DNA of 43,816 bases from Oscillospiraceae bacterium (GTDB taxonomy: Bacteria; Bacillota; Clostridia; Oscillospirales; CAG-272), in assembly GCA_015063585.1 (NCBI GenBank), contig SVTW01000013.1, forward strand, positions 1 to 43,816, given 5' to 3'. The translations under genes and the position numbers were made by a program. A model generated the notes under the pieces. That model was given only the letters and a program-made list of their open reading frames with translations. It was not told the DNA's origin and did no database searches. Shown here one piece after another: positions 208-38,909 of the stretch. Every line of letters begins with the position of its first letter. Within the stretch, counting starts at the first letter, position 1.

Positions 208-378
208 GAGGCTGCGCCAATGACGCAGCCTCTGCTCAAAAAAGCCGACGGTAGGCTTTTTTGTAGCGCGGAATTTGCGGTTTTCGACTGCAAAGCAGTC
301 AAAAATTGCGGTGTTTAGCCGCAAAGCAAAAACGTCGGGGGTGAGTACCAAATGCATTTTTGCATTTGACTCACCCCC
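208..378 (+). repeat. 171-bp dispersed hairpin element, copy A
   Basis: First of five near-identical 171-bp copies. In order it carries: hairpin 1, GAGGCTGCG pairing with CGCAGCCTC; hairpin 2, AAAAAAGCC pairing with GGCTTTTTT; hairpin 3, TTTTCGACTGC against GCAGTC plus A-rich bases; hairpin 4, GCGG against CCGC; hairpin 5, GGGGGTGAGT and AAATGCA against TGCATTT and ACTCACCCCC. The hairpin-1 loop is ccaatga, the reverse complement of the tcattgg loop in copies B, E and F. The other end lies 39 nt past the stop of the SDR gene. The gene to the left is outside the window. Confidence 0.92.
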
Positions 379-417
379 TTTGTGTAAGTTATCTGCTATT
401 GTAAAGGCAAATGAGCT

Positions 418-1200
418 TTATTCTTTCCAGAGCTCTCTGTTGATATTCGGCGTCAGTTGGGCAAGCATGCCGCCGTCCACGATGATCTCCGCTCCTGTCG
501 TATTACGAGACTGGTCACTTCCCAAATACCATGCCGCGTTTGCCACGTCTTCAAAGCTGGCAATATCGTGTATGGGGGTATAATTGGGAAGACAGTATTT
601 TGCGTTATTCACATTCTGCTCCCAACGAACCGTTTTTATCATGCCGGGCAGAACACAGTTGGAGCGAATCCCGTATTTCCCCCAATCTACGGCAAAGGAC
701 TTTGACATTGCGTTGATAGCGCTTTTCGATGAACAATAAGCGCATCTGTTTTCGGTTACTCTGACAGACGAGTTGGAGCCGATAAATACGATCGCGCCCT
801 TATGCTTTTCCTTCATCTGCTTTGCCGCTTCTCTTGCCATCAGAAAATTCCAACCGATATTGGTGGTATATACCCCCATAAAATCGTGGATATCCACTTC
901 AAGGCTTACCTGCCCGATCCCAAGGTTGGCGGCATTCAATACGAGTGTATCAAGCAAATATCCGCTTGCCCGAATATCGTCAAATATTTCCTTTACCTCA
1001 TTTTCCTCAAGGGTGGTCGTTTGATAAACGTACCCCTTTGAAAAGATCCCGTATTTCTCACGCAATTTTGCCGCCGCCGAGTCTGCTTTATTTCTGTCGC
1101 GGCTACCCACGAACACATCGTATCCCTCTTTGGCGAAGCGCTCGGCAATGGCAAAGCCGGTGCCGTCATGCGCTCCCGTTACAAAAACCGATTTTTTCAT
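418..1200 (-). CDS. SDR-family NAD(P)-dependent oxidoreductase
   Basis: A 260-residue classical short-chain dehydrogenase/reductase. The Rossmann motif TGAHDGTG is at residues 8-15, an NNAG-like LNAANLG near 89-95, catalytic serines in GSNSS at 141-145, and the YxxxK pair at Y155 and K159. The C-terminal IIVDGG is also typical. It is the last gene of a five-gene minus-strand operon, 20 nt after the DgoD-like dehydratase. In that setting it probably oxidises a sugar to its lactone or acts on a keto-deoxy sugar acid. The motifs establish an NAD(P) oxidoreductase, while the substrate is inferred only from neighbours. The ATG at 1200 follows an AAGGAGATAG-type ribosome binding site. Confidence 0.9.
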   Translation of the reverse strand: MKKSVFVTGAHDGTGFAIAERFAKEGYDVFVGSRDRNKADSAAAKLREKYGIFSKGYVYQTTTLEENEVKEIFDDIRASGYLLDTLVLNAANLGIGQVSLEVDIHDFMGVYTTNIGWNFLMAREAAKQMKEKHKGAIVFIGSNSSVRVTENRCAYCSSKSAINAMSKSFAVDWGKYGIRSNCVLPGMIKTVRWEQNVNNAKYCLPNYTPIHDIASFEDVANAAWYLGSDQSRNTTGAEIIVDGGMLAQLTPNINRELWKE

Positions 1201-1220
1201 TGATCCCTATCTCCTTTTCA

Positions 1221-2372
1221 TCACCAATCGGCAACACTTCCGTCCTCAAAATATTGGCGGGGAGTTGTCCATTTTCCGTCATAAAGCTTTTCTTTGATCG
1301 CTTCTTCGTCAAGCTCAACGCCAAGTCCCGGCTTTGTGGGGACGTCGATATATCCGTTTTGGAGTACAAAGGGCTCCTTGATGTAGCCGACACCAAGATC
1401 GCCTTTGTCGGGATTTCCGGGGTGCTCTTGAACGAGAAAGTTCGGCGAGCATGCGTCAACCTGCAAGCAAGAGGCGAGTGAGATCGGACCAAGGGGATTA
1501 TGAGGCGCGATGGAGCCGAAATAAAGCTCCATCATGGTGGCGATCTTTCGTCCCTCAAAAATACCGCCGCAGTGACAGATGTCGGGCTGAACGATGCTGA
1601 CCGCCTGCTTTTCAATCAGCTCTCTGTATTGCCATTTACTGAAAAGGCGTTCGCCTGCCGCGATCGGAATGGTGGTAGAACGTGCGATATTCACCATGCA
1701 GTCCACGTTCTCAGGCAGGCAGGGTTCTTCAATGAAGAAGGGCATATAGGGCTTTAATTCTTCGGCAAGTCTGAGAGCCATTGCGGGACTTACTCTGCCG
1801 TGAAAATCGATGGCAAGGTCAATATCCCAACCGATATGCTCCCGGATGCGCGCGAAGCGCTCAACGTGTGCTTTGGTGTTTGCGGGGGTGTCCACCTGCT
1901 TGATTGGCGGAATGATCGAATATTTGAGTGCCGTATATCCGTCGGCAAGACGTTGATCGGCAATCTCCAGCATTTCCTCCACAGAGAATTCTCCAACCGC
2001 TGCCGTACGCTTGATGTGCGTATACATTCTGATCTTTTCTCTGCATTTGCCGCCGAGCATCTCATATACGGGGCAGTTGTAGTATTTTCCCTTGATATCC
2101 CACATTGCCTGCTCGATTCCGCTGATGGCAGAGAGCATAAGAGGACCTCCGCGGTAAAAACCACCGCGGTAGAGCGCCTGCAAATGATGCTCGATCATCA
2201 TGGGGTCTTTGCCGATCAGATAGTCCTCAAACTCCTTGATCACGGCTTCTACAGCGTTGCAATGTCCTTCCAGCACGGGCTCACCAAGACCGTAAATATC
2301 GGTGTCGGTGTGCATTTTCAAAAACATCCAGCGGGGCTTTACCTTAATTATTTCAAGCCTTGTTATTTTCAT
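1221..2372 (-). CDS. Enolase-superfamily sugar-acid dehydratase, DgoD-like
   Basis: A 383-residue mandelate racemase/muconate lactonizing enzyme family protein that resembles E. coli D-galactonate dehydratase (DgoD, 382 aa) along its whole length. Shared blocks include PRWMFLK, GEP, FYRGGP, AGER, QPD and HNPLGPIS. The expected Mg2+ ligands are present as D189, E215 and E241, and the catalytic histidines as H191 (DFHGR) and H291, all six residues after the E. coli numbering as I recall it. The family removes water from an aldonate to give a 2-keto-3-deoxy acid. The gene overlaps the upstream hydrolase by 4 nt (ATGA), so the two are translationally coupled. Galactonate is likely but not proven, because related members act on other six- and five-carbon sugar acids. 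Confidence 0.88.
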   Translation of the reverse strand: MKITRLEIIKVKPRWMFLKMHTDTDIYGLGEPVLEGHCNAVEAVIKEFEDYLIGKDPMMIEHHLQALYRGGFYRGGPLMLSAISGIEQAMWDIKGKYYNCPVYEMLGGKCREKIRMYTHIKRTAAVGEFSVEEMLEIADQRLADGYTALKYSIIPPIKQVDTPANTKAHVERFARIREHIGWDIDLAIDFHGRVSPAMALRLAEELKPYMPFFIEEPCLPENVDCMVNIARSTTIPIAAGERLFSKWQYRELIEKQAVSIVQPDICHCGGIFEGRKIATMMELYFGSIAPHNPLGPISLASCLQVDACSPNFLVQEHPGNPDKGDLGVGYIKEPFVLQNGYIDVPTKPGLGVELDEEAIKEKLYDGKWTTPRQYFEDGSVADW

Positions 2373-5198: not shown

Positions 5199-5975
5199 AT
5201 GAAATATCATAACGAGAATTTTAACGGAACGCTTGACTTCCGCAGCAAATTTCATCAAAATTGGTGGGTAGAGCTACATCTCCACGAATACAGTGAGATC
5301 CTTTATTGTAAAAAAGGCGAGGGCGATATTTGGATAAACGGACGGAACAGCAAGCTCCGTTCCAATGAATTTATCTGGATTCCGCCAAATTACGTTCACC
5401 AATATGCGTTTCAAAACGCGGAGCTTGTTTGTGCCGTATTTTCCAATGATTTTATCCCCCTGTTTTTCTCCGCAATAGGAGGGAAAAGATTGGTCGTCTC
5501 GGCAATTCCCGCTGATGAATTATCCGCTGTTTTAGAAAGCCTATATTTGTTGAAAAAAGATCAACGCCTGAAAATATGCGGGCTTTTGAATCTGATTGCC
5601 GAAAAGGTTATGGAACATTCTCAATTTGAAGAAGCCAACTGCATGGACGGAGTTCTGCTGCAAAAGGTTGTGACCTATCTCTCCACGCATTATACAGAAG
5701 AGATCAAGCTTTGTCAGCTTGCCAAATTGTTTGGGTATAATGAAAAATATCTGTCACACGCGCTGCATTCTTTAACCGGAGTGCATTTTTCACAGCTTCT
5801 GACCTTCTACCGTATTGAGCACGCCAAAAAGCTGCTCTCGCAGCAACCGCAAAAAAACATAGCAAGCGTTGCGATGGAAAGCGGTTTTTCCGCAATCAAT
5901 ACCTTTCACAGAGCATTTTTCAAGCATATGGGAATGACACCGATGCAATATCGCAATCTGTTTAAAGAAAAATAA
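5199..5975 (+). CDS. AraC-family transcriptional regulator
   Basis: A 258-residue regulator. The N-terminal cupin-like sensor (about 1-100) contains LHLHEYSEILYCKKGEG and IPPNYVHQY. The C-terminal double helix-turn-helix (about 155-258) contains LAKLFGYNEKYLSHALHSLTG and VAMESGFSAINTFHRAFFKHMGMTPMQYR. Such proteins usually activate a neighbouring sugar operon when their ligand binds the cupin. It is divergent from the five-gene sugar operon and is the obvious candidate regulator. ATG 5199 is preferred because AGGTGAT at 5188-5194 is a good Shine-Dalgarno match for it; GTG 5190 and ATG 5193 in the same frame would lie inside that site. Confidence 0.93.
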   Translation: MKYHNENFNGTLDFRSKFHQNWWVELHLHEYSEILYCKKGEGDIWINGRNSKLRSNEFIWIPPNYVHQYAFQNAELVCAVFSNDFIPLFFSAIGGKRLVVSAIPADELSAVLESLYLLKKDQRLKICGLLNLIAEKVMEHSQFEEANCMDGVLLQKVVTYLSTHYTEEIKLCQLAKLFGYNEKYLSHALHSLTGVHFSQLLTFYRIEHAKKLLSQQPQKNIASVAMESGFSAINTFHRAFFKHMGMTPMQYRNLFKEK

Positions 5976-6083
5976 GGCGGGGAACATGCGCGAAAGAATG
6001 CACAAGAACGCCGTTCCGTATAAGCGATCGAAAAACGAAATTCCGCGCGTCAAAAAAGCCAACCGTCGCCTTTTTAAAATGAG

Positions 6084-6123
6084 GGGCTGCCTCAAATTGT
6101 AAATCTGAGGCAGCCCTTTTTTT
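6084..6123 (+). terminator. Rho-independent terminator downstream of the AraC-type gene
   Basis: An 11-bp stem, GGGCTGCCTCA (6084-6094) against TGAGGCAGCCC (6106-6116), followed by seven T. The preceding bases (about 6053-6077) look like a decayed hairpin 2 of the 171-bp element. The rest of 5976-6172 shows nothing else. The stem may also stop transcripts of the convergent ferritin gene, although the T-tract favours the plus strand. Confidence 0.85.
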
Positions 6124-6172: not shown

Positions 6173-6682
6173 TCAAAGAACGAGGCTGGGCGCGGTGTAG
6201 ACTCTGCCCGCATATTCCTGATCCAGAGCGTACAGCCCCTTGGGATCGCTTCCGAAAAGCTTGTAACGGTTGATCATCGAATCGGCGTTATCCTCTTCCT
6301 CCATCTGCTCGTCAACGAACCAGTCAAGGAACTTCATGGTGCGATAGTCTCTCGCTTCATAGCACTCGTGATAGATGGCGTTGATCAGGCTTGTGACGTA
6401 ACGCTCATGCTCGGCGGCAACCTCAAGGGGATCGAGAATGCCCTCGTAAGTCTTGTCGGGCTTGGCGATCGCCTCAAGGGTGACCTTCCACCCGTTGTTC
6501 TGCATATATTTCATAAACAACAGGGCATGATCACGCTCCTCCTGCGCTTGGATCATATAGTAGTTTGCGTAACCGTCGAGATCGAGCTCATCGTAGTGAT
6601 TTGCGATATCAACGTAAAGATACGCACTGTAGAGCTCCTTGTTGATCTGCTCATTAAGCAATGTCTTTATTTTGTCGTTCAT
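6173..6682 (-). CDS. Non-haem ferritin
   Basis: A 169-residue ferritin that would assemble into a 24-subunit iron-storage cage and oxidise Fe2+ at its ferroxidase centre. Visible ligands are E16 in NKELYSAYLY, E49 and H52 in QEERDHA, and the later glutamates in HECYEARDY and DEQMEEEDN. The start at 6682 is set by AAGGAGGAGG just upstream; an open frame continues 22 codons further but lacks a site. It is the last gene of an operon with reverse rubrerythrin and DUF134, which indicates a role in iron sequestration and oxygen tolerance. Confidence 0.93.
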   Translation of the reverse strand: MNDKIKTLLNEQINKELYSAYLYVDIANHYDELDLDGYANYYMIQAQEERDHALLFMKYMQNNGWKVTLEAIAKPDKTYEGILDPLEVAAEHERYVTSLINAIYHECYEARDYRTMKFLDWFVDEQMEEEDNADSMINRYKLFGSDPKGLYALDQEYAGRVYTAPSLVL

Positions 6683-7940: not shown

Positions 7941-9068
7941 TTGAACACAAAGCAGACAGCACCCAAAAGGGCACAACAGGGCAGTCACGAGCAGATCTTT
8001 TGCATCGCGATGCTGCTTTTTATTATATTTGAAATGATTTTATTGACCGTGATCCTCATTGGCGCGCTGACACCGCCTGCCGTGGCAACTCCTTCGGTGG
8101 GGGACGACGAGACCTCGTCGGGGGACGGAAGCGAGGAGGACACGACGAAGCCGGACGACACCAAAATCTTTTCGGGCGGCGTTGTTCCGTCGCGCCCGCA
8201 AGCCGATGAAAACACGCGTTTGATCGCGGGGATCGGGTCGCAATATGCGCTTCTTATAGATGCCAAGAGCGGTGCGGTCCTTGCCGCACTGGGCGAAAAT
8301 ACACGGTTTGAGCCGGCATCGCTGACAAAGGTGATGACCTTGATCGTCGCATGCGAGCATTTGGAGCCCGCCGATCTGGACCGTAAGCTTACGCTTTCGC
8401 AAGCGGCTTGGGATTACGCCCGTTCCGGTGCTTATACCGAGGCAAGCGTCGTTGGGCACGATGTTGGGGACGAGATTCGAATTCGTGACCTGCTTTACGG
8501 AATCGGAATGGAGTCGGCGGCGGATTGCACCGTGATGATCGTGGAAGAAGTTGCGGGAGATGAGGCGGCATTTGTAAAGCTGATGAATGATAAAGCGGCT
8601 GAGCTGGGGCTTACCGACACTCATTTTGATAATGCCATTGGACATGAGAGTGAGAATAACTACAGCACCGCCACCGAGATGGCAATGATCATGTCTTATG
8701 CGATGCAAAGCGACCTGATCCGGGAGATCCTTGGGTTGACACAGCACGCATTTCGCATGTGGTATTACAACGAAAGCGGGGTATATACCGAGTTCGGTTT
8801 TACCTATTACAGCACGCTGTTCCGCAGTCGCATGGAGACCTACAAAAAATATGCGAAGGAGGATTTTTCTCTTTCCAAGGTGAAACTGACGGCAGGAAAA
8901 ACCGGCTCGTTTATCACGTCCTCTTACGTTGTTTGCACTGCGAAAGCGAAAAGCGGGGGCGGGGAGTACATCCTTGTGTTGGGCGATGCACCCAAGCCCG
9001 AGGGCGCGTCTGCGGGATACGTGACCATGTGCGATATCAAAACGGTATTGGATACCTATATCCCGTAA
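7941..9068 (+). CDS. D-alanyl-D-alanine carboxypeptidase-like protein (peptidase S11)
   Basis: A 375-residue penicillin-binding-protein-like enzyme. A membrane anchor spans about 20-42, then comes an acidic low-complexity linker (about 50-90) and the S11 domain. The nucleophile motif is S127-L-T-K130 and the third motif K320-T-G. The middle motif reads S192-A-A194-D where S-x-N is normal, so the usual asparagine is missing. The family trims the terminal D-Ala from peptidoglycan stem peptides outside the membrane. Activity here is uncertain because of the altered motif. It starts at TTG 7941 behind AGGAAAGGA, since no in-frame ATG fits. Confidence 0.87.
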   Translation: MNTKQTAPKRAQQGSHEQIFCIAMLLFIIFEMILLTVILIGALTPPAVATPSVGDDETSSGDGSEEDTTKPDDTKIFSGGVVPSRPQADENTRLIAGIGSQYALLIDAKSGAVLAALGENTRFEPASLTKVMTLIVACEHLEPADLDRKLTLSQAAWDYARSGAYTEASVVGHDVGDEIRIRDLLYGIGMESAADCTVMIVEEVAGDEAAFVKLMNDKAAELGLTDTHFDNAIGHESENNYSTATEMAMIMSYAMQSDLIREILGLTQHAFRMWYYNESGVYTEFGFTYYSTLFRSRMETYKKYAKEDFSLSKVKLTAGKTGSFITSSYVVCTAKAKSGGGEYILVLGDAPKPEGASAGYVTMCDIKTVLDTYIP

Positions 9069-9091: not shown

Positions 9092-9262
9092 GAGGCTGCG
9101 TCATTGGCGCAGCCTCTGCTCAAAAAAGCCGACGGTAGGCTTTTTTGCAGCGCGGAATTTGCGGTTTTCGACTGCAAAGCAGTCGAAAATTGCGGTGTTT
9201 AGCCGCAAAGCAAAAACGTCGGGGGTGAGTACCAAATGCATTTTTGCATTTGACTCATCCCC
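9092..9262 (+). repeat. 171-bp dispersed hairpin element, copy B
   Basis: Full-length copy beginning 23 nt after the carboxypeptidase stop, same direction as that gene. The hairpin-1 loop is tcattgg. One change in hairpin 5 (ACTCATCCCC) would still pair as a G-U wobble in RNA. It occupies nearly all of the gap before the amidase gene. Confidence 0.95.
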
Positions 9263-10745: not shown

Positions 10746-10788
10746 TTCGCTGATCGGGGGAAGTCGACGCCCCTCAAATCTATGGAAA

Positions 10789-10872
10789 TCTCCCTACGCC
10801 GGTATTATCCGTATCAGGTAAAAGGGTTCGGCATTTGCCATCTCAGCCGTCCTCCATGGGACAGCACCCCCG
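10789..10872 (-). ncRNA. TPP riboswitch aptamer (THI element)
   Basis: On the minus strand the segment reads GGGGGTGCT ... CTGAGATGGC ... ACCCTTTTACCTGAT ... GGATAATACCGGCG ... AGGGA. These are the conserved CTGAGA, ACCTGAT, GGATAAT-CCGGCG and closing GGGA blocks of the thiamine pyrophosphate riboswitch. It controls thiT and the downstream small membrane protein gene. Confidence 0.97.
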
Positions 10873-10892
10873 ATTTTATGCGGTTCGAGCGT

Positions 10893-12394: not shown

Positions 12395-15300
12395 CTATGC
12401 TTTTTGATTGCGAATTTCTATATATTTTTCAAACAAATTGTGAATAAGGGGAAGCGCGGCGTCGCCTTTTTGCAGACGCATGCAGATATGCGGCTCGCCC
12501 GACATCAGCACGCGTAGGCGTCCGAGTTCATCTGAGAGCTGCATCCAGATGTCGAAATCGAGCGATTTCGGATAGATGTGGATCTCGTTTCCTTCCTGCC
12601 GCAACGCGGTCATACCGCAACGGACTGCGAGGGAATGGATCAGCGCGATCTGCAACAAATTGCGTGCGGGGAGCGGGGGTTCACCGTATCGGTCTACCAA
12701 CTCGTCGGTGATATCCGAGAGGTCGTCGGTGGACGCGATCAGGGCGATCTTTTTGTAGAGTGCCATGCGCTGCGCGGGATAGGGCACGTATTTTTCGGGT
12801 AGAAAAGCGTCGAAGTTGAGTGACACCGTGCATTCGGTTTCGGGCTCCTGCTCCACACCCTTTTCCTCAAGCACCGCTTGGTTGAGCAGCTTGATATAGA
12901 GGTCATAGCCGATCGCGTCGAGATGACCGTGCTGTTCGGAGCCGAGCAGATTTCCAACACCGCGCAGTTCCATGTCGCGCAGAGCGATTTTGAAGCCCGC
13001 GCCGAATTCGGCATATTCACGTACGGCTTCCAGTCGTTTTTGCGCGATTTCGGAGATGGCGCGGTATGCGGGGAAGGTAAAATATGCGTAGGCACGGCGA
13101 GAGGAACGTCCGATGCGTCCGCGGATCTGATGAAGCTGGGAGAGTCCGAGCCGGTGCGCGTTCGATACGATCAGCGTGTTTGCGTTGGGAATATCCACGC
13201 CCGTTTCAATGATCGTGGTGCAAACGAGAATGTCGATCTCGCCCGCGAGCATCTGCTCCCAAATTCGTTCCAACTCTTCTTTATCCATTTTTCCGTGCGC
13301 CACCGTCACCCGCGCCTCGGGGATCGCGGCGGAGACTTTTGCGGCAAGCGTATTGATGGTTTCCACCGTGTTATGCAGGTAAAATACCTGACCACCGCGG
13401 CGCAATTCGCGTCGAATCGCTTCCTCAACGATCAATTCGTCCTCCTCAAGCACATAGGTCTGGATCGGCAAGCGGTTGAGGGGTGCCTCATCGAGGATCG
13501 AGATATCACGAATGCCACCCATCGCCATGTTGAGTGTGCGCGGGATCGGGGTTGCCGAAAGCGAGAGTACGTCAACGCCTTGTGCCAACTGCTTGAGCTT
13601 TTCTTTTTGCGCCACGCCGAAGCGTTGCTCCTCGTCCACGATCAAAAGCCCGAGATCGTGAAAGGAGATATCCTTTGAGAGCAGACGGTGCGTGCCAACC
13701 ACAATATCGACCTCACCTCTTGCCAGCCGCCGCAGGGTTTTGGTTTGTTGCTTGCTTGTGCGGAAGCGTGAGAGCATGTCAACGTTCACGGCAAAGGCGC
13801 GCATACGGCTGACAATGGTTTGATAGTGTTGCAGAGCGAGCAGGGTCGTTGGAACCAAAATCGCCACCTGCTTGCCGCCAAGGATCGCCTTGTACGCGGC
13901 ACGGAGTGCAACTTCTGTTTTACCGTAGCCAACGTCGCCGCAGAGCAGTCGATCCATCGGCGCGGCCTGCATCATGTCCTTTTTGATCTCGTCAACCGCG
14001 ATCAGCTGGCTTTCGGTCTCCTCATATTCAAAGGCTTCTTCAAAGGCTTTTTGATAGCTGTCGTCGGCAGGGAAGGCATGCCCCGGGCGGCGCATGCGCT
14101 CGGCATAGAGCTTGATCAACTCCTTTGCCATTTCCTTAGCGGCGCCCTTCGCACGTGATTTTGTTTTTTTCCAGGTGTCGCTTCCCATTTTGGAAAGCTT
14201 GACCGTGCCGTCATCGGCATGTGCTCCGATATATTTGGATACCTTGTCGAGCTTTTCAACCGGTAAAAAGAGTTTGTCGCTCCCCGCATAACGGATACCG
14301 ATATAGTCGCGTGTAACGCCGTCGCACGTCAAGGTCTCAATGCCCGTATACTGACCGATACCGTAGGTCTCGTGTACAACAAAATCACCCTCCGAGAGCT
14401 CGGCATAGGATAGAATGCTCTTGCTTTTTGCCTTTTTCCTGCGGAGCGGAGAATGCGCGGCGGGCGAAAGCCCGCCAACCCGTGTGTCGGGATGGAGCGA
14501 GAGCACCGCGATCTTGGCAACGATCAGCTCAAATCCGGGCAGAACGTCACGTGAGAGGATCGAAACCGCGCCGCGATCGGGCAATACGTCGGGATCCTTG
14601 CAGAGAACAAAGCCTTTTTCTGCGAGAAGCGTTTTGGTGCGGATCGCTTCGGGCTCGTTTTCGGTGAGGACCAGACAGCGATAGCCGCCGCGCAGATATT
14701 GGTCGAGATCCTCCAGAAAGAGCGCTTCGTTGTCGGCATAACACACCGTTTGCCTTGTGCGAAAGCCGAACAACCCCGCAAGGCGTTGATCGGTCACATT
14801 ATAGGCAATCGAATCGATATGAAGGGTCACGTTGGCTTCACAAAAGAGCCGAAGGGCGGCGTCCTCTTTCGCGTACTCGGCATATTTCGGCGCGATCGTG
14901 CCGCTTTCGAGCAGATCCACCACCGTTTGGTTGAGATGCCACGTGGCAGCCTTGAGACGGTCGTTGATCGCGTTTGTGCCGCGCATGAGGATCAGGCGCT
15001 TGCCTTCGAAATAATCCAGCAGGGTTGCGCGCTCGGGATAGATCAGCGTGATATATTTGTCAAGAAATCCCGGCTCACCCGTGCCATTGAGCGCGCGGTC
15101 GATCGCGGCACATTCCTTGAGGAGCTCGTCGCAGACCCGTTCATCGGATGCCGCGCGAAATTGTGCCAAAACGGCTTTTTTGAGCTTTTCAAGTGTTTCA
15201 CGGTCGGGTAGTAGCTCGCGCGCCGGAGGAAATGCCGCTTCACTGACGTCTTGTGTCATACGTTGTGTTTCGGGATCAAATAGTCCCATGCGGTCAATTT

Positions 15301-15949
15301 CGTCGCCAAACAGCTCGATGCGAAGCGCGTATGCCCCTGTGACCGCTCCGCCGTCGCGATCGGAAAAGGTTCCGTAGGGCGGGTAAATATCCATGATGCC
15401 GCCGCGCAGAGCAAACTGTCCGGGGCTGTCGACCAAGTCAACGCGAACATAGCCCGCGTTGGTCAGCCTCCGTGCAAAGGTGCTGATGTCGATCTGGTCG
15501 ATCTCGGTGATCCGAAGGGTATTCTTGCGCAGGGCATCGGGCGGCACCGTGTAACCGAGTGCGGCATCGGGGGTGGTGACGATGATCTCATAATCGTTTC
15601 CAAGCAATCCCGACAAGACGCGAAGCCTCTCATGCTCATACTCATGGGAGGCGGTGATGTTATAAAAGGTGAGATCGCGAGCCATAAAAAAGCCCGCGCG
15701 GATGCCATATCGCTCCAGCATACCGCAAACGCGAACGCAGTCCTTTTCCTCAGGGCAGAGAAGCAAAGCCGCGCCGCCGCGATAGGAGACGCTGTCCGCA
15801 AGGAGCGAGACGAGAAAGGCATCGGCGGCACCGTCGCAAAGCCCCGATGCAAGAATGGGAAGGGGATTGTGACGAAAATCACGCTCCAAGGTGTGCAGGA
15901 GCTGTTGATATTCGGTGTCACGACGGATCGATTCGGTGAGAATAGTCAT
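12395..15949 (-). CDS. mfd: Transcription-repair coupling factor Mfd
   Basis: A 1184-residue protein of the usual Mfd length. The N-terminal UvrB-like homology region is followed by the RNA-polymerase interaction domain around FVVHETYGIGQYTGIETL, then a RecG-like translocase with Walker A GDVGYGKTEVALRAA, the Walker B box DEEQRFGV and helicase motifs (SATPIPRTL, GRIGRSSRRAYAYF), and a C-terminal TRCF domain. Mfd removes stalled RNA polymerase from DNA damage and recruits UvrA. It starts 3 nt after the pth stop, so the two are one operon. Confidence 0.98.
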   Translation of the reverse strand: MTILTESIRRDTEYQQLLHTLERDFRHNPLPILASGLCDGAADAFLVSLLADSVSYRGGAALLLCPEEKDCVRVCGMLERYGIRAGFFMARDLTFYNITASHEYEHERLRVLSGLLGNDYEIIVTTPDAALGYTVPPDALRKNTLRITEIDQIDISTFARRLTNAGYVRVDLVDSPGQFALRGGIMDIYPPYGTFSDRDGGAVTGAYALRIELFGDEIDRMGLFDPETQRMTQDVSEAAFPPARELLPDRETLEKLKKAVLAQFRAASDERVCDELLKECAAIDRALNGTGEPGFLDKYITLIYPERATLLDYFEGKRLILMRGTNAINDRLKAATWHLNQTVVDLLESGTIAPKYAEYAKEDAALRLFCEANVTLHIDSIAYNVTDQRLAGLFGFRTRQTVCYADNEALFLEDLDQYLRGGYRCLVLTENEPEAIRTKTLLAEKGFVLCKDPDVLPDRGAVSILSRDVLPGFELIVAKIAVLSLHPDTRVGGLSPAAHSPLRRKKAKSKSILSYAELSEGDFVVHETYGIGQYTGIETLTCDGVTRDYIGIRYAGSDKLFLPVEKLDKVSKYIGAHADDGTVKLSKMGSDTWKKTKSRAKGAAKEMAKELIKLYAERMRRPGHAFPADDSYQKAFEEAFEYEETESQLIAVDEIKKDMMQAAPMDRLLCGDVGYGKTEVALRAAYKAILGGKQVAILVPTTLLALQHYQTIVSRMRAFAVNVDMLSRFRTSKQQTKTLRRLARGEVDIVVGTHRLLSKDISFHDLGLLIVDEEQRFGVAQKEKLKQLAQGVDVLSLSATPIPRTLNMAMGGIRDISILDEAPLNRLPIQTYVLEEDELIVEEAIRRELRRGGQVFYLHNTVETINTLAAKVSAAIPEARVTVAHGKMDKEELERIWEQMLAGEIDILVCTTIIETGVDIPNANTLIVSNAHRLGLSQLHQIRGRIGRSSRRAYAYFTFPAYRAISEIAQKRLEAVREYAEFGAGFKIALRDMELRGVGNLLGSEQHGHLDAIGYDLYIKLLNQAVLEEKGVEQEPETECTVSLNFDAFLPEKYVPYPAQRMALYKKIALIASTDDLSDITDELVDRYGEPPLPARNLLQIALIHSLAVRCGMTALRQEGNEIHIYPKSLDFDIWMQLSDELGRLRVLMSGEPHICMRLQKGDAALPLIHNLFEKYIEIRNQKA

Positions 15950-16912: not shown

Positions 16913-19537
16913 ATGGCAAAGAAGTATTGCTATCTGTTTTCCGAAGGCGACGCATCCATGCGTGAGCTGCTCGGCGGTAAGGGCGCAAACCTTGCTGAAA
17001 TGACCAAGATCGGACTCCCTGTTCCTCAGGGCTTCACGATTTCCACCGAGGCCTGCACGCAGTATTACGAAGACGGCAAGCAGATCAACGATGGCATCAT
17101 GGCAGAGATCATGGAGTACATTGTGAAGATGGAGGAGGTTACCGGCAAGAAGTTCGGTGACTTGGAGAACCCGCTTCTCGTTTCGGTTCGTTCCGGTGCG
17201 CGCGCATCCATGCCCGGTATGATGGATACCATTCTCAACCTCGGTCTGAATGAGGACGTTGTTGAGGTTATGGCAAAGAAGTCCGGCAATGCACGTTGGG
17301 CTTACGACTGCTACAGAAGATTTATCCAGATGTATTCCGACGTTGTTATGGAAGTTGGAAAGAAGTACTTTGAGGAGCTCATCGATAAGATGAAGGAAGA
17401 GAAGGGCGTTAAGCTCGACGTTGAGCTGAACGCTGAGGACCTCAAGGAGCTTGCAAATCAGTTCAAGGCAGAGTACAAGGCAAAGATCGGTGAGGACTTC
17501 CCGAGCGATCCTAAGGTACAGCTGATTGGCGCAGTAAAGGCAGTGTTCCGTTCTTGGGACAACCCCCGCGCAAACGTATACCGCCGCGACAACGACATTC
17601 CCTATTCTTGGGGTACTGCCGTTAACGTACAGGCAATGGCATTCGGTAACATGGGTGACAACTGCGGAACCGGTGTTGCATTTACCCGTGACCCTGCAAC
17701 CGGTGAGAAGAAGCTCATGGGTGAGTTCCTGACCAACGCACAGGGTGAGGACGTTGTTGCAGGTGTTCGTACTCCTATGCCCATCGCTCAGATGGCAGAG
17801 AAGTTCCCCGCAGCATTTGAGGAATTCAAGAAGGTTTGCGAGATTCTCGAGAACCACTATCATGATATGCAGGATATGGAGTTCACCATTGAAAATGAGA
17901 AGCTCTATATGCTCCAGACCCGTAACGGTAAGAGAACTGCTCCCGCAGCTCTCCAGATCGCAGTTGACCTCGTAGCAGAGGGCCACAAGACCAAGGAAGA
18001 GGCTGTTCTGATGATCGACCCCAGAAACCTCGACACCCTTCTGCATCCCCAGTTCGATGCAAAGGCACTCAAGGCAGCAAAGCCCATGGGCCGTGGTCTT
18101 GGCGCATCTCCCGGTGCTGCTTGCGGACAGGCTGTATTCTCCGCTGAGGATGCAGAGACTTGGAAGGCAGCAGGCAAGAAGGTTATTCTCGTTCGTCTTG
18201 AGACCTCTCCCGAGGACATCACCGGTATGAAGGCTGCTCAGGGTATCCTGACGGTTCGCGGCGGTATGACCTCTCACGCAGCAGTTGTTGCTCGTGGTAT
18301 GGGTAAGTGCTGCGTTTCCGGATGCGGCGAAATCGCTATGGATGAGGAAAACAAGAAGTTCACGTTGGCTGGTAAGACCTTTGTTGAGGGTGACTATATC
18401 TCCATCGACGGTTCTACCGGTAACATTTACGACGGTATCATTCCCACCGTTGACGCAGAGATCTCCGGTAACTTCGGCACCATCATGGGATGGGCAGACG
18501 AGTTCCGTAAGCTCAAGGTTCGCACCAACGCAGATACTCCCGCAGACGCAAAGAAGGCTCGCGAGCTGGGCGCTGAGGGTATCGGTCTGTGCCGTACCGA
18601 GCACATGTTCTTCGAGGCAGACAGAATCGCTGCATTCCGCGAAATGATCTGCTCCGACACCGCAGCTGAGAGAGAAGCAGCTCTGGCTAAGATCCTGCCT
18701 TATCAGCAGGGCGACTTCGAGAAGCTCTATGAGGCTCTCGAGGGCAACCCCGTTTGCATCCGTTTCCTTGACCCGCCTCTCCACGAGTTCGTTCCCACCA
18801 CTGAGGAGGACATCGCAATTCTCGCAAAGGCACAGGGCAAGACCGTTGAGCAGATCAAGGCGATCATTTCTTCTCTCCACGAGTTCAACCCCATGATGGG
18901 TCACCGTGGATGCCGTCTGGCAGTCACCTACCCCGAAATCGCTAAGATGCAGACCACCGCTGTGATTCGCGCGGCTATCAACGTTCAGAAGGCACACGCT
19001 GATTGGAACGTAAGACCCGAGATCATGATCCCGCTGGTTGGCGACGTGAAGGAGCTGAAGTACGTGAAGGCTGTTGTTGTTGCAACCGCTGACGCTGAGA
19101 TCGCTGCTGCAGGCGTGAAGCTCGACTACGAGGTTGGTACGATGATCGAGATTCCTCGTGCATGCCTGACCGCTGACGAGATCGCTGCAAACGCTGACTT
19201 CTTCTGCTTCGGTACCAACGACCTGACGCAGATGACCTACGGCTTCTCTCGTGACGACGCAGGTAAGTTCCTCGGTGCTTACTACGATGCAAAGATCTTC
19301 GAGAATGATCCTTTCGCAAAGCTTGACCAGACCGGTGTTGGTAAGCTGATGAACATGGCAGTAACCCTGGGCAGACCCGTAAACAAGAACCTCCACGTAG
19401 GTATCTGCGGTGAGCACGGTGGTGACCCCACGTCGGTTGAATTCTGCCACAGCATTGGCTTGGATTATGTATCCTGCTCGCCCTTCCGTGTACCGATCGC
19501 ACGTCTGGCAGCAGCACAGGCAGCTCTGAAGGACTAA
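16913..19537 (+). CDS. ppdK: Pyruvate, phosphate dikinase
   Basis: An 874-residue PPDK, the standard length. The N-terminal nucleotide-binding domain contains GGKGANLAEM and SVRSGARASMPGMMDT, the central swivelling domain has the phosphohistidine motif GGMTSHAAVVARGMG, and the C-terminal PEP/pyruvate barrel ends with GTNDLTQMTYGFSRDD, CGEHGGDP and SIGLDYVSCSPFRVPIARLAAAQ. It interconverts PEP and pyruvate with ATP/AMP/PPi and is a central glycolytic enzyme of many anaerobes. Codon use is strongly biased (no TTA, CTA or TCA over long stretches), as in highly expressed genes. ATG 16913 follows TGGAGGATT. Confidence 0.99.
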   Translation: MAKKYCYLFSEGDASMRELLGGKGANLAEMTKIGLPVPQGFTISTEACTQYYEDGKQINDGIMAEIMEYIVKMEEVTGKKFGDLENPLLVSVRSGARASMPGMMDTILNLGLNEDVVEVMAKKSGNARWAYDCYRRFIQMYSDVVMEVGKKYFEELIDKMKEEKGVKLDVELNAEDLKELANQFKAEYKAKIGEDFPSDPKVQLIGAVKAVFRSWDNPRANVYRRDNDIPYSWGTAVNVQAMAFGNMGDNCGTGVAFTRDPATGEKKLMGEFLTNAQGEDVVAGVRTPMPIAQMAEKFPAAFEEFKKVCEILENHYHDMQDMEFTIENEKLYMLQTRNGKRTAPAALQIAVDLVAEGHKTKEEAVLMIDPRNLDTLLHPQFDAKALKAAKPMGRGLGASPGAACGQAVFSAEDAETWKAAGKKVILVRLETSPEDITGMKAAQGILTVRGGMTSHAAVVARGMGKCCVSGCGEIAMDEENKKFTLAGKTFVEGDYISIDGSTGNIYDGIIPTVDAEISGNFGTIMGWADEFRKLKVRTNADTPADAKKARELGAEGIGLCRTEHMFFEADRIAAFREMICSDTAAEREAALAKILPYQQGDFEKLYEALEGNPVCIRFLDPPLHEFVPTTEEDIAILAKAQGKTVEQIKAIISSLHEFNPMMGHRGCRLAVTYPEIAKMQTTAVIRAAINVQKAHADWNVRPEIMIPLVGDVKELKYVKAVVVATADAEIAAAGVKLDYEVGTMIEIPRACLTADEIAANADFFCFGTNDLTQMTYGFSRDDAGKFLGAYYDAKIFENDPFAKLDQTGVGKLMNMAVTLGRPVNKNLHVGICGEHGGDPTSVEFCHSIGLDYVSCSPFRVPIARLAAAQAALKD

Positions 19538-19572
19538 TTCGGATACTTGACAGATCCTAACAGTCAATAAAA

Positions 19573-19799
19573 GGGGTGAGTATCAGATGCAAAAAATGCA
19601 TTTGATACTCACCCCGACATTTTTGCTTTGCGGCTAAACGCCGCATTTTTTGCCTATTATATCGCAAAAATTATACGGAAAACAAGCGAAAGCCGAAAAT
19701 TCCGCGCTTCGGAAAGGTCTACCGTCGGCTTTTTTGAGAAGGGTCTGCGCCAATGGCGCAGACCCCCTCGCTTCCAAAAGGTGACGGTAGGCTTTTGGA
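19573..19799 (-). repeat. Degenerate copy C of the 171-bp element with an extra hairpin
   Basis: Minus-orientation copy, diverged in the middle. Hairpin 5 (GGGGTGAGTATC with ATGCATTT and GATACTCACCCC) and hairpin 2 (GTCTACCGTCGGCTTTTTT) are recognisable, and hairpin 1 has become GGGTCTGCG / CGCAGACCC, a compensated change. A second hairpin-2-like unit, CCAAAAG / CTTTTGG around GTGACGGTAGG, follows at 19774-19798. It lies between the convergent ppdK and phosphoesterase genes and probably terminates both. Confidence 0.8.
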
Positions 19800-21130: not shown

Positions 21131-21301
21131 GGGGGTGAGTCAAATGCAAAAATGCATTTGGTACTCACCCCCGACGTTTTTGCTTTGCGGCTAAACACCG
21201 CAATTTTCGACTGCTTTGCAGTCGAAAACCGCAAATTCCGCGCTACAAAAAAGCCTACCGTCGGCTTTTTTGAGCAGAGGCTGCGTCAATGACGCAGCCT
21301 C
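21131..21301 (-). repeat. 171-bp dispersed hairpin element, copy D
   Basis: Full-length minus-orientation copy with its hairpin-1 end 68 nt past the mntP stop. The hairpin-1 loop is tcattga. Otherwise almost identical to copies B and E. Confidence 0.95.
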
Positions 21302-28702: not shown

Positions 28703-29977
28703 ATGATTCTGACAAAAGAACAGCAAGAGATTCTCGGCGGCTCTCAAGGCGAGGTCATGGCTAAGGTGATGCAGACCGTTATTCGCTACGGAGAGCTGTT
28801 CGGTGCGGAGCGTCTCGTTCCCGTAACGAGCAAATATAACCATTTGGTTACGTCATTTGGATTGAAAATGATGACTCCCGTGTTTGATCTGATGCAGCAG
28901 CTCATTGACGCGGGCGCGGTTTCCGGACAAAAATTTTCGGCAGATCCCCGTCCGCTGGATCCCAACGTTCCCAAAAACTTTTTGCAAAATCTGATCTTCA
29001 ATAAATTTATGTACTCCAAGCAGGAAGCCTATGAGGAACAGCTTCAAAAGCTTGGTATGCTTGATAAGAACGCTTTCACCTGCGCCTGCTATTTGGACGA
29101 GGTCGGTAACAAGCCGGCGCGCGGAGACGTGCTGAGCTGGGCGGAATCCTCTGCCGTGGTGTATGCCAACTCGGTGCTCGGCGCACGCTGCAACCGCAAT
29201 TCGGGTATCATTGATATCATGGGTTCGATCGCGGGTTACGTTCCCGAATTCGGACTCCTGACCGACGAGGGCAGACGGGCGACCTGGATCGTAGAGATCA
29301 AAACGACCAAAAAGCCCGAAGCACAGCTTCTCGGTTCCGCCATCGGTATGAAGGTGATGGAGGCGGTTCCCTATGTTAAGGGGCTGGATCGCTGGCTCGG
29401 CTCTGAGCTTGACGATGCCGCATGCGCGTACCTCAAGGATTTCGGCGCGGCAACGGCTTCCAACGGTGCTGTGGGTCTTTATCACATTGACAACCTCACG
29501 CCCGAGGCAAAGGATATGGGCGACGCGCTGATCAAGGAGGGGGCGCAGGTCTACGTGATCGACGATGCCGAGCTCCAGCGTGTTTACGACAGTTATCCCG
29601 TGATCTGGAAGAACGTTGACGCGAAGCCAAAGCTTTGCTTTATGGGCTGCCCGCACATGAGCTTGGAGCAGCTCAAGAGCTGGACCGACCGTGTGGAGTC
29701 GGCACTGCAGGCGGCAGGCAATAAAAAGGTTGTGATCCCCACGGTATTCACCGCGGCACCCGACGTGATCAAGGAGTTTGAAAAAACGCCCTATGCGGCA
29801 CGTCTTAAGGCAACCGGTGTGATCGTATCTTATATTTGTCCTTTGATGTACATGAACAATCCGCTTTGCGGAAAAATGCCGGTTATCACCTCGTCCAACA
29901 AACTGCGCACCTATACCACGGCGCGGTATTATACCGATGACGAGATTCTGGCACAGATCACGAAAGGGGGCAAATGA
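28703..29977 (+). CDS. Aconitase X catalytic (large) subunit, DUF521
   Basis: A 424-residue AcnX large subunit. Recognisable segments are MILTKEQQEILGG at the start, CACYLDEVGN (C127, C129), WAESSAVVYANSVLGARCNRN (145-166, with C163), CFMGCPHMS (312-320) and ICPLMYMNNPLCG (378-390). These cysteines are candidates for the iron-sulfur ligands. Characterised AcnX enzymes dehydrate hydroxy acids: cis-3-hydroxy-L-proline in bacteria and mevalonate 5-phosphate in archaea. The substrate here is unknown. The gene overlaps the small subunit by a few bases and follows the ene reductase. ATG has AAGGAAAGGG upstream. Confidence 0.92.
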   Translation: MILTKEQQEILGGSQGEVMAKVMQTVIRYGELFGAERLVPVTSKYNHLVTSFGLKMMTPVFDLMQQLIDAGAVSGQKFSADPRPLDPNVPKNFLQNLIFNKFMYSKQEAYEEQLQKLGMLDKNAFTCACYLDEVGNKPARGDVLSWAESSAVVYANSVLGARCNRNSGIIDIMGSIAGYVPEFGLLTDEGRRATWIVEIKTTKKPEAQLLGSAIGMKVMEAVPYVKGLDRWLGSELDDAACAYLKDFGAATASNGAVGLYHIDNLTPEAKDMGDALIKEGAQVYVIDDAELQRVYDSYPVIWKNVDAKPKLCFMGCPHMSLEQLKSWTDRVESALQAAGNKKVVIPTVFTAAPDVIKEFEKTPYAARLKATGVIVSYICPLMYMNNPLCGKMPVITSSNKLRTYTTARYYTDDEILAQITKGGK

Positions 29978-29979
29978 TC

Positions 29980-30423
29980 ATGAAAAAATTTCAAGGCAGA
30001 GTCGTAGCGCCGGGAAGCGTTACGGCAACCGCGCTGGTTTCCCATGGCGGACTTAATACCCTTGCATCCTTCCAGAAGGCATTGCAGTTTGGTGATAAAA
30101 AGGCAACCTGCGGCGATCAGAACAACCCGGATCTGTATGGCAGAGAGATGGCGGGCAAGGCACTTTGTCTGCCGCAAACCATCGGTTCAACCACGGGCGG
30201 CTTGGTGCTCTACTGCGCGTGTGCCATGAAGAGACAGCCTGCCTGCATGCTGTTCTCTCAGCCCATCGACTCACTTGCGGGTGCGGGCGTGATCCTTGCC
30301 GACGTTTGGTTGGAGGGTGTGAAGATGCCGGTTGTCGATTCGCTGGGGGAGGACTTCCTCAACTATGTCAAAGAGGGCATGACGGTAACCGTCAAAGAGG
30401 ACGGGATCGTTGAGGTTGAATAA
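29980..30423 (+). CDS. Aconitase X swivel (small) subunit, DUF126
   Basis: A 147-residue DUF126 swivel-domain protein. It begins KKFQGRVVAPGSVTATALVS and carries LPQTIGSTTGGLVLY, whose GST segment is the conserved substrate-binding loop, then SQPIDSLAGAGVILADVW. It forms the active site together with the large subunit. Split large and small subunits are best known from archaeal phosphomevalonate dehydratase, while many bacterial AcnX proteins are fused. Start 29980 lies 9 nt after GGGGG; ATG 29974, inside the overlap with the large-subunit stop, is the alternative. Confidence 0.9.
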   Translation: MKKFQGRVVAPGSVTATALVSHGGLNTLASFQKALQFGDKKATCGDQNNPDLYGREMAGKALCLPQTIGSTTGGLVLYCACAMKRQPACMLFSQPIDSLAGAGVILADVWLEGVKMPVVDSLGEDFLNYVKEGMTVTVKEDGIVEVE

Positions 30424-30441: not shown

Positions 30442-30612
30442 GAGGCTGCGTCATTGGCGCAGCCTCTGCTCAAAAAAGCCGACGGTAGGCTTTTTTGTAG
30501 CGCGGAATTTGCGGTTTTCGACTGCAAAGCAGTCGAAAATTGCGGTGTTTAGCTGCAAAGCAAAAACGTCGGGGGTGAGTACCAAATGCATTTTTGCATT
30601 TGACTCACCCCC
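30442..30612 (+). repeat. 171-bp dispersed hairpin element, copy E
   Basis: Full-length copy starting 18 nt after the aconitase-X small-subunit stop, same direction. In hairpin 4 CCGC reads CTGC, which still pairs as a wobble in RNA. It fills most of the gap before the flavodiiron promoter. Confidence 0.95.
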
Positions 30613-37132: not shown

Positions 37133-37181
37133 TAATTTTTTGAAAATACTTTACTTTGTTGCGGTTTTTATTTCAAACCCG

Positions 37182-37210: not shown

Positions 37211-37325
37211 AATTTCGTTTTTAAGGCATGATTGGAAGGATTTGAGCCGAAATATTGCGACTTTGTGAAATTTTCGACAAACAAACTTGCAATCCCCCAA
37301 CGTGCAATTTAAGGAGGAGCAAATT

Positions 37326-38678
37326 ATGAGCATTCAAAACGAATATCTGAAAAAGGTGTTGGAAAATGTGATTCAGCGCAATCCCGGTGAATCCGAATTC
37401 CACCAGACTGTAAGCGAGGTTCTGGAGTCTCTGGAGCCCGTTGTGGAAAAGAGACCCGAGCTGATTGAAAAGGGAATCATTGATATGATCGTAGAGCCTG
37501 AGCGTGTGATCAAATTCCGCGTTCCGTGGGTCGATGATCAGGGCAAGGTTCAGGTAAACCGCGGTTACCGCGTACAGTTCAACAGCGCGATCGGTCCGTA
37601 TAAGGGCGGTCTTCGCTTCCATCCCTCTGTTACGGAGAGCATTATCAAGTTCCTCGGCTTTGAGCAGACCTTCAAAAACTCGCTCACGGGTCTCCCCATG
37701 GGCGGCGGTAAGGGTGGCTCCGACTTTGACCCCAAGGGTAAGAGCGACCGTGAGGTAATGGCTTTCTGCCAGAGCTTTATGACCGAGCTTGCAAAATATA
37801 TCGGTCCCGATACCGACGTTCCCGCAGGTGATATCGGTGTTGGCGCGCGTGAGATCGGCTATCTCTTCGGTCAGTATAAGAGACTGCGCGATGAGTTCAC
37901 CGGCGTGCTCACGGGTAAGGGACGCTCCTACGGCGGCTCGCTGATCCGTCCCGAGGCAACCGGCTTCGGCGCGGTTTACTATACGGTTGAGATGCTCAAA
38001 TCCTTCGGTGAGGACGTAAAGGGTAAGACTTTTGCGATCTCGGGATTTGGAAACGTAGCTTGGGGTACGGTTATCAAGGTCAACGAGCTGGGCGGCAAGG
38101 TTGTCACCCTGTCGGGCCCCGACGGTTACATCTACGATAAAGACGGTATCTCCACGCCCGAGAAGATCAACTTCATGCTCGAGATGCGTGCTTCCTGCCG
38201 CAACCGTGTGCAGGACTATGCCGACAAGTTTGGCGTCCCCTTCTTCGCAGGCAAAAAGCCTTGGGGCGAAAAGGTTGACGTGATCATGCCCTGCGCTACG
38301 CAGAATGAGGTTGGCATGGCTGATGCAGAGAAGATCGTTGCAAACGGCATTAAGTACTACGTTGAGGTTTCCAATATGCCTACCACCAACGAGGCAGTTG
38401 CATACCTGAAGGCAAACGGCGTGGTTGTTGCGCCCTCGAAGGCAGTCAATGCCGGCGGTGTTGCCGTTTCGGGACTTGAGATGTCGCAGAACTCGATGCG
38501 TTACAGTTGGAGCGCAGAAGAGGTTGACGAAAAGCTTAAGGGCATCATGAAGAATATCTACGAGAGCTCGGTTGCCGCCGCTAAGGAATACGGCATGGAG
38601 GGCGACCTCGTTGCAGGTGCAAACATCGCAGGCTTCCTCAAGGTTGCAGACGCGATGCTCGCTTACGGAGTGGTTTGA
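37326..38678 (+). CDS. gdhA: Glutamate dehydrogenase, hexameric NADP-type
   Basis: A 450-residue glutamate dehydrogenase of the short hexameric class. GPYKGGLRFHPSV and LTGLPMGGGKGGSDFDPKGKS hold the substrate lysines, PAGDIGVGAREIGYLFGQYKR follows, and GKTFAISGFGNVAWG is the dinucleotide fold. It fixes ammonia onto 2-oxoglutarate. NADP preference is assumed from the overall similarity to GdhA. Codon use suggests high expression. ATG 37326 follows AAGGAGGAGC. Confidence 0.97.
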   Translation: MSIQNEYLKKVLENVIQRNPGESEFHQTVSEVLESLEPVVEKRPELIEKGIIDMIVEPERVIKFRVPWVDDQGKVQVNRGYRVQFNSAIGPYKGGLRFHPSVTESIIKFLGFEQTFKNSLTGLPMGGGKGGSDFDPKGKSDREVMAFCQSFMTELAKYIGPDTDVPAGDIGVGAREIGYLFGQYKRLRDEFTGVLTGKGRSYGGSLIRPEATGFGAVYYTVEMLKSFGEDVKGKTFAISGFGNVAWGTVIKVNELGGKVVTLSGPDGYIYDKDGISTPEKINFMLEMRASCRNRVQDYADKFGVPFFAGKKPWGEKVDVIMPCATQNEVGMADAEKIVANGIKYYVEVSNMPTTNEAVAYLKANGVVVAPSKAVNAGGVAVSGLEMSQNSMRYSWSAEEVDEKLKGIMKNIYESSVAAAKEYGMEGDLVAGANIAGFLKVADAMLAYGVV

Positions 38679-38698
38679 TCCAACCGTTTCATAATCAC

Positions 38699-38731
38699 AG
38701 AAGGAGAAGCCCGCGCGGCTTCTCCTTCTTG
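38699..38731 (+). terminator. Hairpin downstream of gdhA
   Basis: A 13-bp stem, AGAAGGAGAAGCC / GGCTTCTCCTTCT, with a 5-nt loop, 20 nt after the stop. The T-run is poor (TT only), so termination may rely on the hairpins of the adjacent repeat copy F. Confidence 0.65.
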
Positions 38732-38738
38732 CATAAGT

Positions 38739-38909
38739 GGGGGTGAGTCAAATGCAAAAATGCATTTGGTACTCACCCCCGACGTTTTTGCTTTGTGGCT
38801 AAACACCGCAATTTTCGACTGCTTTGCAGTCGAAAACCGCAAATTCCGCGCTTCAAAAAAGCCTACCGTCGGCTTTTTTGAGCAGAGGCTGCGCCAATGA
38901 CGCAGCCTC
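38739..38909 (-). repeat. 171-bp dispersed hairpin element, copy F
   Basis: Full-length minus-orientation copy whose hairpin-1 end lies 6 nt past the stop of the GtaA-like gene. The loop is tcattgg, and hairpin 4 carries one change (CCAC). It separates two convergent operons. Confidence 0.95.

Follow-up and report, generated by a model that had tools for sequence, protein, structure and literature searches.

A modular 171-nt five-hairpin repeat at gene 3′ ends of an uncultured gut bacterium, a candidate bidirectional terminator of MITE-like type

Results

Copies in the contig window

The DNA studied is a contig window of 43,816 nt (SVTW01000013.1; "the window") from an uncultured gut bacterium, and the subject of this report is a 171-nt element of five predicted hairpins (H1 to H5) that is dispersed in the window and in the genome to which it belongs (G000, 2.24 Mb; a fragmented metagenome bin of 99 contigs that is 86.5% complete). 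The gaps between the genes of the window comprise 23 tandem, 7 divergent and 6 convergent gaps. An initial annotation had listed five copies of 171 nt with the same order of hairpins, and all five were found again at the same positions (Table 1). The sixth copy of that annotation was indeed degenerate, with a score of 148.6 bits in the covariance model, but its bounds of 19573-19799 had to be revised. The distances of 23, 68, 18 and 6 nt between the H1 ends and the facing stop codons were reproduced by recomputation, and the 50 nt for the degenerate copy follow from the coordinates. A probable decayed remnant combines a hairpin of the second end type (see below) with a subsequent hairpin that resembles H2 (nhmmer: 25.2 bits, E 1.6e-6 at 6023-6095; covariance model: 27.8 bits). 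The covariance model scan of the window at E up to 1 gave 18 matches. Seven represent the five full copies, the degenerate copy and the remnant. The 11 left over fall on these same seven features or next to them and match the opposite strand or only part of the hairpins; three of the 11 outscore the remnant.

Table 1. Element copies and other features of the window
Feature	Position	Strand	Description
Element copy A	208..378	+	Full length; H5 end 39 nt from the stop codon of gene 418-1200 (-)
Copy A, H1 end			Adjoins the Gut-1 RNA match at 139-208 (-)
Element copy B (reference)	9092..9262	+	Full length; tandem gap, 23 nt past the stop codon of gene 7941-9068 (+)
Copy B, H1	9092..9116	+	Left terminal hairpin with the left imperfect terminal repeat (predicted fold, covariation, end alignment)
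Copy B, H2	9118..9151	+	Hairpin with A6 paired to T6; resembles a terminator on either strand, but has only three G-C pairs, next to the loop (predicted fold, covariation)
Copy B, three-way junction	9152..9219	+	Closing stem, H3 at 9165-9189, H4 at 9190-9208 (predicted fold, covariation)
Copy B, H5	9221..9262	+	Right terminal hairpin with a two-base bulge; TTTT in the flank (predicted fold, covariation, flanks)
Degenerate full-length copy	19572..19765	-	H3 expanded; lies where genes 16913-19537 (+) and 19816-20826 (-) converge
Full-length element	21131..21301	-	Tandem gap, 68 nt past the stop codon of gene 21370-21978 (-)
Full-length element	30442..30612	+	Tandem gap, 18 nt past the stop codon of gene 29974-30423 (+)
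Full-length element	38739..38909	-	Between convergent genes 37287-38678 (+) and 38916-40892 (-), stop codons 60 and 6 nt away
Probable decayed remnant	~5982..6117	-	Between convergent called genes 5586-5975 (+) and 6173-6661 (-); weak score
Thiamine pyrophosphate (TPP) riboswitch	10774..10881	-	74.3 bits

Copy number and uniformity in the genome

A 38-base core of the element, searched with at most three mismatches, was present at 81 places of G000 (35 forward, 46 reverse), a few of which may be double counts on overlapping contig ends; the reversed core, used as a control, was not found. The blastn search with the whole element yielded at least 46 matches (best 40 of 151 candidates scored). 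Among 40 extracted full copies, 37 are exactly 171 nt long, two have 170 nt and one has 172 nt, and the 37 copies deviate from their majority sequence at no more than 0-4 bases. As the genome is a short-read assembly of a metagenome bin, the copies may look slightly more alike than they really are, and because many contig ends break inside the repeat, the true copy number may differ slightly. The element is thus short, non-coding and multicopy, as miniature inverted-repeat transposable elements (MITEs) are (171 nt, 81 core places). The proposal of the initial annotation that it is an amplified, recently spread, terminator-like repeat akin to repetitive extragenic palindromic (REP) elements or MITEs is supported. 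No transposase partner was found, so that the term "mobilised" is still a presumption.

Location and orientation relative to genes

Genes were called with a hexamer score trained on G000, a method of our own rather than a published program. After exclusion of nhmmer hits below 45 bits and of one locus with a single copy (L026, C43:22314), and after removal of 3 of 83 rows as second hits of a place, 80 distinct places remained in G000. At 31 of these no gene was called on one side, mostly at contig ends; in 6 of the other 49 a neighbour is more than 700 nt away. The 49 doubly flanked places comprised 36 between convergent genes, 11 in tandem gaps with H1 towards the stop codon, two in tandem gaps in the reverse orientation, and none between divergent genes. 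Restriction to places with both neighbours within 300 nt left 39 (32 convergent, 6 tandem with H1 to the stop codon, 1 tandem reverse), and restriction to full-length copies left 45 (33, 10 and 2, respectively). In comparison with the window gaps that lack a full copy (5 convergent, 27 others), convergent gaps were enriched with an odds ratio of 15 (p 3e-7). In other genomes of the genus, 30 of 39 fetched rows were doubly flanked, and 17 were convergent, 10 + 3 tandem (H1 towards the stop codon + reverse) and none divergent. The genome G244 of another genus had 17 convergent, 7 + 3 tandem and no divergent places among 27, two of which share flanks.

In the tandem gaps, H1 pointed towards the stop codon in 28 of 36 cases (p 0.001). 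The bias towards stop codons described in the initial annotation is therefore real, but "always" is too strong a word, and the main rule is the location between convergent gene ends. Random orientation or copies within genes, which would have spoken against that annotation, were not what was found: the H1 side faced a stop codon at 68 of the 73 places of G000 with a called gene on that side, and the H5 side at 45 of 56. In summary, the orientation rule is true yet secondary to the location at gene 3′ ends. The distances are short, with median gaps of 18.5 and 23.5 nt to the two stop codons at convergent places of G000, and at 14 of these 36 places both gaps are at most 30 nt, which leaves little space for a second terminator.

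Ends and flanking A- and T-runs

Both ends, read inwards, begin with GGGG-S-TG-NN-TCA or a variant of it in 26 aligned copies, with a few deviating rows. The initial annotation had stated that terminal inverted repeats are absent; this does not hold for the aligned copies, which have imperfect ones, recognized by eye and without a statistical test (GGGGCTGCGTCATT versus GGGGGTGAGTCAAAT). In copies with a second type of ends the terminal repeats are closer to one another (GGGGCTGTCTCAAAT versus GGGGGTGTCTCAAAT), and again a few of the 26 rows deviate.

The six nucleotides to the right of the element contained at least four T in 31 of 40 copies, and the six nucleotides to the left at least four A in 22 of 39; the baseline for at least four T is 12% of the 6-nt windows in other non-divergent gaps. 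As the repeat is nearly invariant and the tracts vary, the tracts are a feature of the insertion site. Together with them, H5 and, on the opposite strand, H1 become hairpins followed by a T-run, so that the form of an intrinsic terminator is present for H5 with its T-run at 31 of 40 copies and, on the opposite strand, for H1 with its A-run at 22 of 39.

Predicted fold and covariation

For the RNA of copy B a folding energy of -95.4 kcal/mol was predicted, versus a mean of -51.7 for shuffled sequences (z -11.5; none of 200 shuffles was that low), and the reverse strand reached -81.2 kcal/mol (z -10.2). The order of the predicted structure is H1, H2, a three-way junction that holds H3 and H4, and H5. 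The initial annotation had described H2 as ending in six T and as looking like an intrinsic terminator. However, its six T lie within the stem, where they pair with six A next to just three G-C pairs at the loop, which makes it a weaker candidate than had been thought; H2 as the main terminator is not supported, and H5 with the T-run and H1 with the A-run look better.

The 26 copies, 6 of them from G000, were aligned by sequence only and the pairs were taken from the fold of copy B. Pairing was possible in 90.4% of the cells versus 84.1 in shuffled alignments, changes on both sides occurred at 30 of 67 pairs (shuffled mean 15.0), and 95 cells were compensated versus 27.9 (none of 500 shuffles reached the observed value in each case). 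The predicted H1, H2, three-way junction and H5 are thus kept by the relatives through compensatory changes. G-U cells outnumbered A-C cells (76 versus 36, or 51 versus 31 when counted by genome and pair; four second-type rows were skipped, for H1 only), which favours the + strand as the folded one.

Exchange of modules and the Gut-1 RNA

The copies can be varied by whole hairpins. H3 is missing in two loci (L181, L189), a second-type H5 follows H1 to H4 in two others (L187, L203), one copy ends after H4 (L180), another joins H1 to H4-H5 (L377), and solo H5 hairpins were found at four loci (L376, L388, L390, L391). A hairpin-ended passenger of about 225 nt replaces H3 behind four different left flanks (L193, L195, L209, L210), although it is complete only in L195, and the passenger also occupies the position of H1 in L204. 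The right part of the compound form precedes two different right flanks (L195, L396). Having four left and two right flanks, the compound form was multiplied as a unit. The passenger itself (L195:2207-2435, - strand) is packed with hairpins, carries GGGGCTGATTCATT at both ends and is possibly a second repeat family.

Another hairpin family of these genomes is Gut-1 RNA of Rfam. With E limited to 0.001, it matched in 31 of the genus's 35 genomes, in 24 of them over the cut-off, and G015 had 34 matches; E. coli, scanned as a control, scored below the cut-off. In the window, the Gut-1 match looks like a series of short hairpins with GTGATATT-like words between them. It touches base 208, and no Rfam match over the gathering score lies inside any of the window copies. 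Gut-1-like hairpin arrays (L384 and L102, judged by eye; window 1-208) lie directly next to an element or, as in L384, continue its H5 end as a fusion, and the two families may recombine or share sites. A 2010 listing describes Gut-1 RNA as "Human gut only" (PMC2864571). Gut-1 RNA is probably a dispersed repeat.

Distribution among relatives

Within the genus, blastn found the element in 11 of the 35 genomes, although for two of the 11 this rests on one weak match each. Each of the well-represented species (G000, G012, G013, G003) has its own version of the element. With the covariance model (E up to 1e-5, best 8 candidates per genome), at least 32 of 295 genomes of the family, the own one included, and at least 17 of 71 genera were positive. 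In a class-wide sample of 391 genomes (E up to 1e-8, best 6 candidates per genome) the own genome was the only one with a match, and the 390 others had none. The copy number differs between close relatives: G244 (genus g31) had 41 blastn matches including the query, versus 0-2 model matches in each of five genus-mates. This set of genomes offers a good contrast for finding a mobilising gene. At two loci of G244 (L359, L360) the same element with the same flanks is present on different contigs, which may reflect a duplicated assembly or a segmental duplication.

Carriage by plasmids or phages was rejected, because searches of a plasmid and a phage collection gave no match to the element and an exact 39-base core had none in viral contigs; the same core had no match in a genome contig collection either. 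The nearest named relatives of the putatively Mfd-like window gene 12395-15949 come for the most part from Clostridia bins of herbivore guts. In 65 of 70 loci fetched with this gene the model found no match, and five distant matches were left out.

Orthologous gene ends that lack the element

The 3′ ends of orthologous genes without the element were inspected by eye for plain hairpin terminators, since an automatic hairpin-plus-T scan was too permissive for counting. A plain terminator followed the gene in 10 of 15 readable orthologs. For gene 29974-30423 it was present in four of five orthologs, near the stop codon in G009 and G016 and within about 100 nt in G020 and G006, while none was clear in G025. 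For the gene in front of a copy of G244, all five readable orthologs of the genus-mates had a plain terminator right past the stop codon, and the contig of the sixth ends there. In five further one-sided pairs a plain terminator was seen once (G000 L215 versus G012 L095).

Search for a mobiliser

The Y1 transposase model (PF01797) exceeded the cut-off in 5 of the 35 genomes of the genus, namely in three of the 11 carriers of the element (G003, G018, G020) and in two of the 24 others (G014, G017). Mobilisation by a REP-associated tyrosine transposase (RAYT), as for REPINs, was rejected, since G000 and 8 of the 11 carriers known from blastn lack a PF01797 match; the genomes are incomplete. With three carriers having PF01797, the rejection does not extend to every carrier. 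Spread by reverse transcription was rejected because PF00078, found in 8 of 35 genomes, occurred in only two of the 11 carriers (G003, G016) versus 6 of 24 others and not in G000, G012 or G013. A partner of the IS1182 type was rejected as well: PF13751 had four matches, restricted to G013 and G030, and the end motif of the element was absent from these four loci; as to a parent insertion sequence (IS) with shared ends, most IS families were not searched. Elements derived from IS200/IS605 depend on a Y1 transposase and have, at their left end, a short target word that is always the same. The left flank of the 171-nt element is A-rich yet not fixed, and G000 has no Y1 match.

Discussion

A putative bidirectional terminator that multiplies

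On balance we favour the interpretation that the element is a non-autonomous, modular, MITE-like repeat at gene 3′ ends that would serve as a bidirectional terminator, and we hold this to be somewhat better than an even bet. From the genomic patterns we infer that the element terminates transcription and transposes, that it follows a target rule and that insertions at other places disappear. The element would occupy gene 3′ ends, chiefly gaps between convergent genes, and terminate both genes. On the + strand, the transcript of the gene on the H1 side would run through the folded element and would be stopped by H5 together with the T-run of the flank, aided by H2; on the other strand, H1 and the A-run of the flank, read as a T-run, would stop the transcript of the opposite gene. 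New copies would land at sites with A-runs and T-runs without a target duplication, and the imperfect GGGG-S-TG-NN-TCA terminal repeats would be the likely recognition ends of an enzyme acting in trans. We propose that insertions elsewhere did not persist, as genes would be silenced by so strong a terminator.

Several results weigh against this interpretation. Target duplications were absent at 40 copies, where flank matches of 2 nt occurred once (expected 2.1), matches of 3 nt once (1.2) and exact matches of 4-12 nt never. An empty site could not be resolved at base level: at the locus used for this comparison, identity to the closest genomes did not exceed 79%. The models for Y1, IS1182-type transposases and reverse transcriptases were negative in the 86.5% of G000 that the bin represents, other transposase families not having been searched. 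The ends do not match in type within three loci (L052, L187, L203), which have a left end of type 1 and a right end of type 2. The excess of left A-runs at convergent places (21 of 33) over tandem places (4 of 10) was not significant (p 0.28). Five of the 15 readable orthologs, in G025 and at L018, L102, L105 and L111, have no clear plain terminator; at the latter four, another reading frame seems to come next instead. Lastly, the fold is weakly kept after insertion within G244, whose copies have diverged among themselves (2 of 27 rows were identical and were merged): the 15 compensated cells compare with a mean of 8.6 in 1000 shuffles, the highest of which had 17, and G-U cells numbered 80 versus 62 A-C cells. 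Our reading is that the structure would be selected in the copies that spread and not at every site.

A special form of target choice can be envisaged, in which the folded + strand replaces the hairpin of a native terminator and leaves its A-run and T-run in place. We consider this unlikely, but if true it would explain why duplications are lacking, why the flanks are rich in A and T, why plain terminators are missing and why modules are swapped at the borders of hairpins, where H3, H1 and H5 are exchanged and a Gut-1-like array is fused to H5. Over time such a swap would rewire how transcripts end in the genomes of one bacterial family.

Alternative explanations

The strongest competitor, to which we give a limited chance, is a purely parasitic MITE-like repeat without a role in termination, which would insert into AT-rich intergenic DNA and survive where it is tolerated at 3′ ends. 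The pneumococcal repeats have the same convergent bias and are read in that way (PMC3049150). The weak pairing constraint in place in G244 agrees with it, and so do the orthologs that have neither element nor terminator and the flanking runs, which vary while the element does not and thus are a property of the site. What it leaves unexplained are the convergent places with both stop codons within 30 nt and the plain terminators of most readable orthologs: taken together, these mean that many genes would lack a terminator if the element did not terminate. Nor does it account for the polarity of the A/T flanks, which supplies a terminator tail for each direction of transcription.

Ancient host terminators at fixed sites that are kept alike by gene conversion, with little or no movement, are improbable. 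Such terminators would agree with the species-specific versions in G000, G012, G013 and G003, and at one site with both flanking genes conserved, G012 (L097) and G000 (L179) indeed have different versions. However, plain terminators are present at many orthologous gene ends, 41 blastn matches (query included) in G244 stand against 0-2 model matches in its genus-mates, and only 5 of 40 fetched loci of other species share an element-adjacent gene with an element of G000, a number that chance could give by rough judgement.

We give equally little credence to a 3′ untranslated region (UTR) element or small RNA, such as an mRNA stabiliser or a protein-binding RNA with a functional three-way junction: the covariation of the junction, the excess of G-U cells that points to the + strand and the orientation bias in tandem gaps are in line with it, but at convergent places the RNA would be antisense to one gene, H3 is dispensable or exchangeable, and no Rfam match at E up to 1 was present in the 3171-nt locus around copy B. 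Integron attC sites were dismissed by consideration only, as the copies are dispersed and do not lie in cassette arrays.

Taken together, a dense and recently amplified repeat family seems to terminate the transcripts of dozens of genes within a single genome. As species differ in version and copy number of the element, nature itself provides a test of whether a signal as basic as that for transcription can be taken over by mobile repeats. The results also suggest that Gut-1, an orphan RNA of Rfam, belongs to the dispersed hairpin repeats of these genomes.

Comparison with known systems

In the literature searched, with most subscription papers outside its scope, no description of such a repeat in this bacterial group was found. 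REPs have a length of about 20-40 nt, and REP/BIME (bacterial interspersed mosaic elements) and REPINs are associated with RAYTs. The 171-nt element resembles them in being a palindromic extragenic repeat at gene 3′ ends with many copies and species-specific versions. In contrast to REPs, it is a unit of five hairpins, and no Y1/RAYT match was present in G000.

Bidirectional intrinsic terminators of low-GC Firmicutes are simple hairpins flanked by A- and T-runs near convergent genes (PMC1590033). The flanks and the location are shared by the 171-nt element, which differs in being a dispersed, near-identical composite. A review groups BOX, RUP and SPRITE with the prokaryotic MITEs and calls terminator roles conceivable (PMC10969869).

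BOX of S. pneumoniae is described as a boxA-boxB-boxC composite with a predicted folded RNA, a variable middle, lone modules and over-representation between convergent genes (PMC3049150), and the 171-nt element is likewise modular, with a predicted folded RNA, a variable middle module, lone modules and a convergent bias. For BOX, target duplications and some similarity to the ends of ISSpn2 are reported there, whereas neither a duplication nor a known partner was found for the 171-nt element. The middle of BOX is repeated in tandem, while the element can lose or exchange its middle module or have a passenger with hairpin ends in its place.

Along with BOX, the closest kind is SPRITE, which is terminator-like, lies near the 3′ ends of coding sequences, in 15 of 30 cases between convergent genes, and has AAAA/TTTT ends; for SPRITE, a target duplication is not established and no IS with matching ends was found (PMC3049150). 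The 171-nt element, with 36 of 49 places between convergent genes, A- and T-runs at its ends and no target duplication, fits this description. SPRITE is a single 18-bp duplex plus a U-rich tract with 28% GC (PMC3049150). The 171-nt element, compared by description only, has five hairpins, a three-way junction, about 50% GC and GGGG-S-TG-NN-TCA ends; its A/T runs lie in the flank, and its host belongs to another class of Bacillota. In summary, the element is a more elaborate version of a SPRITE/BOX-type repeat, from which it differs in size, GC content, end motif and architecture.

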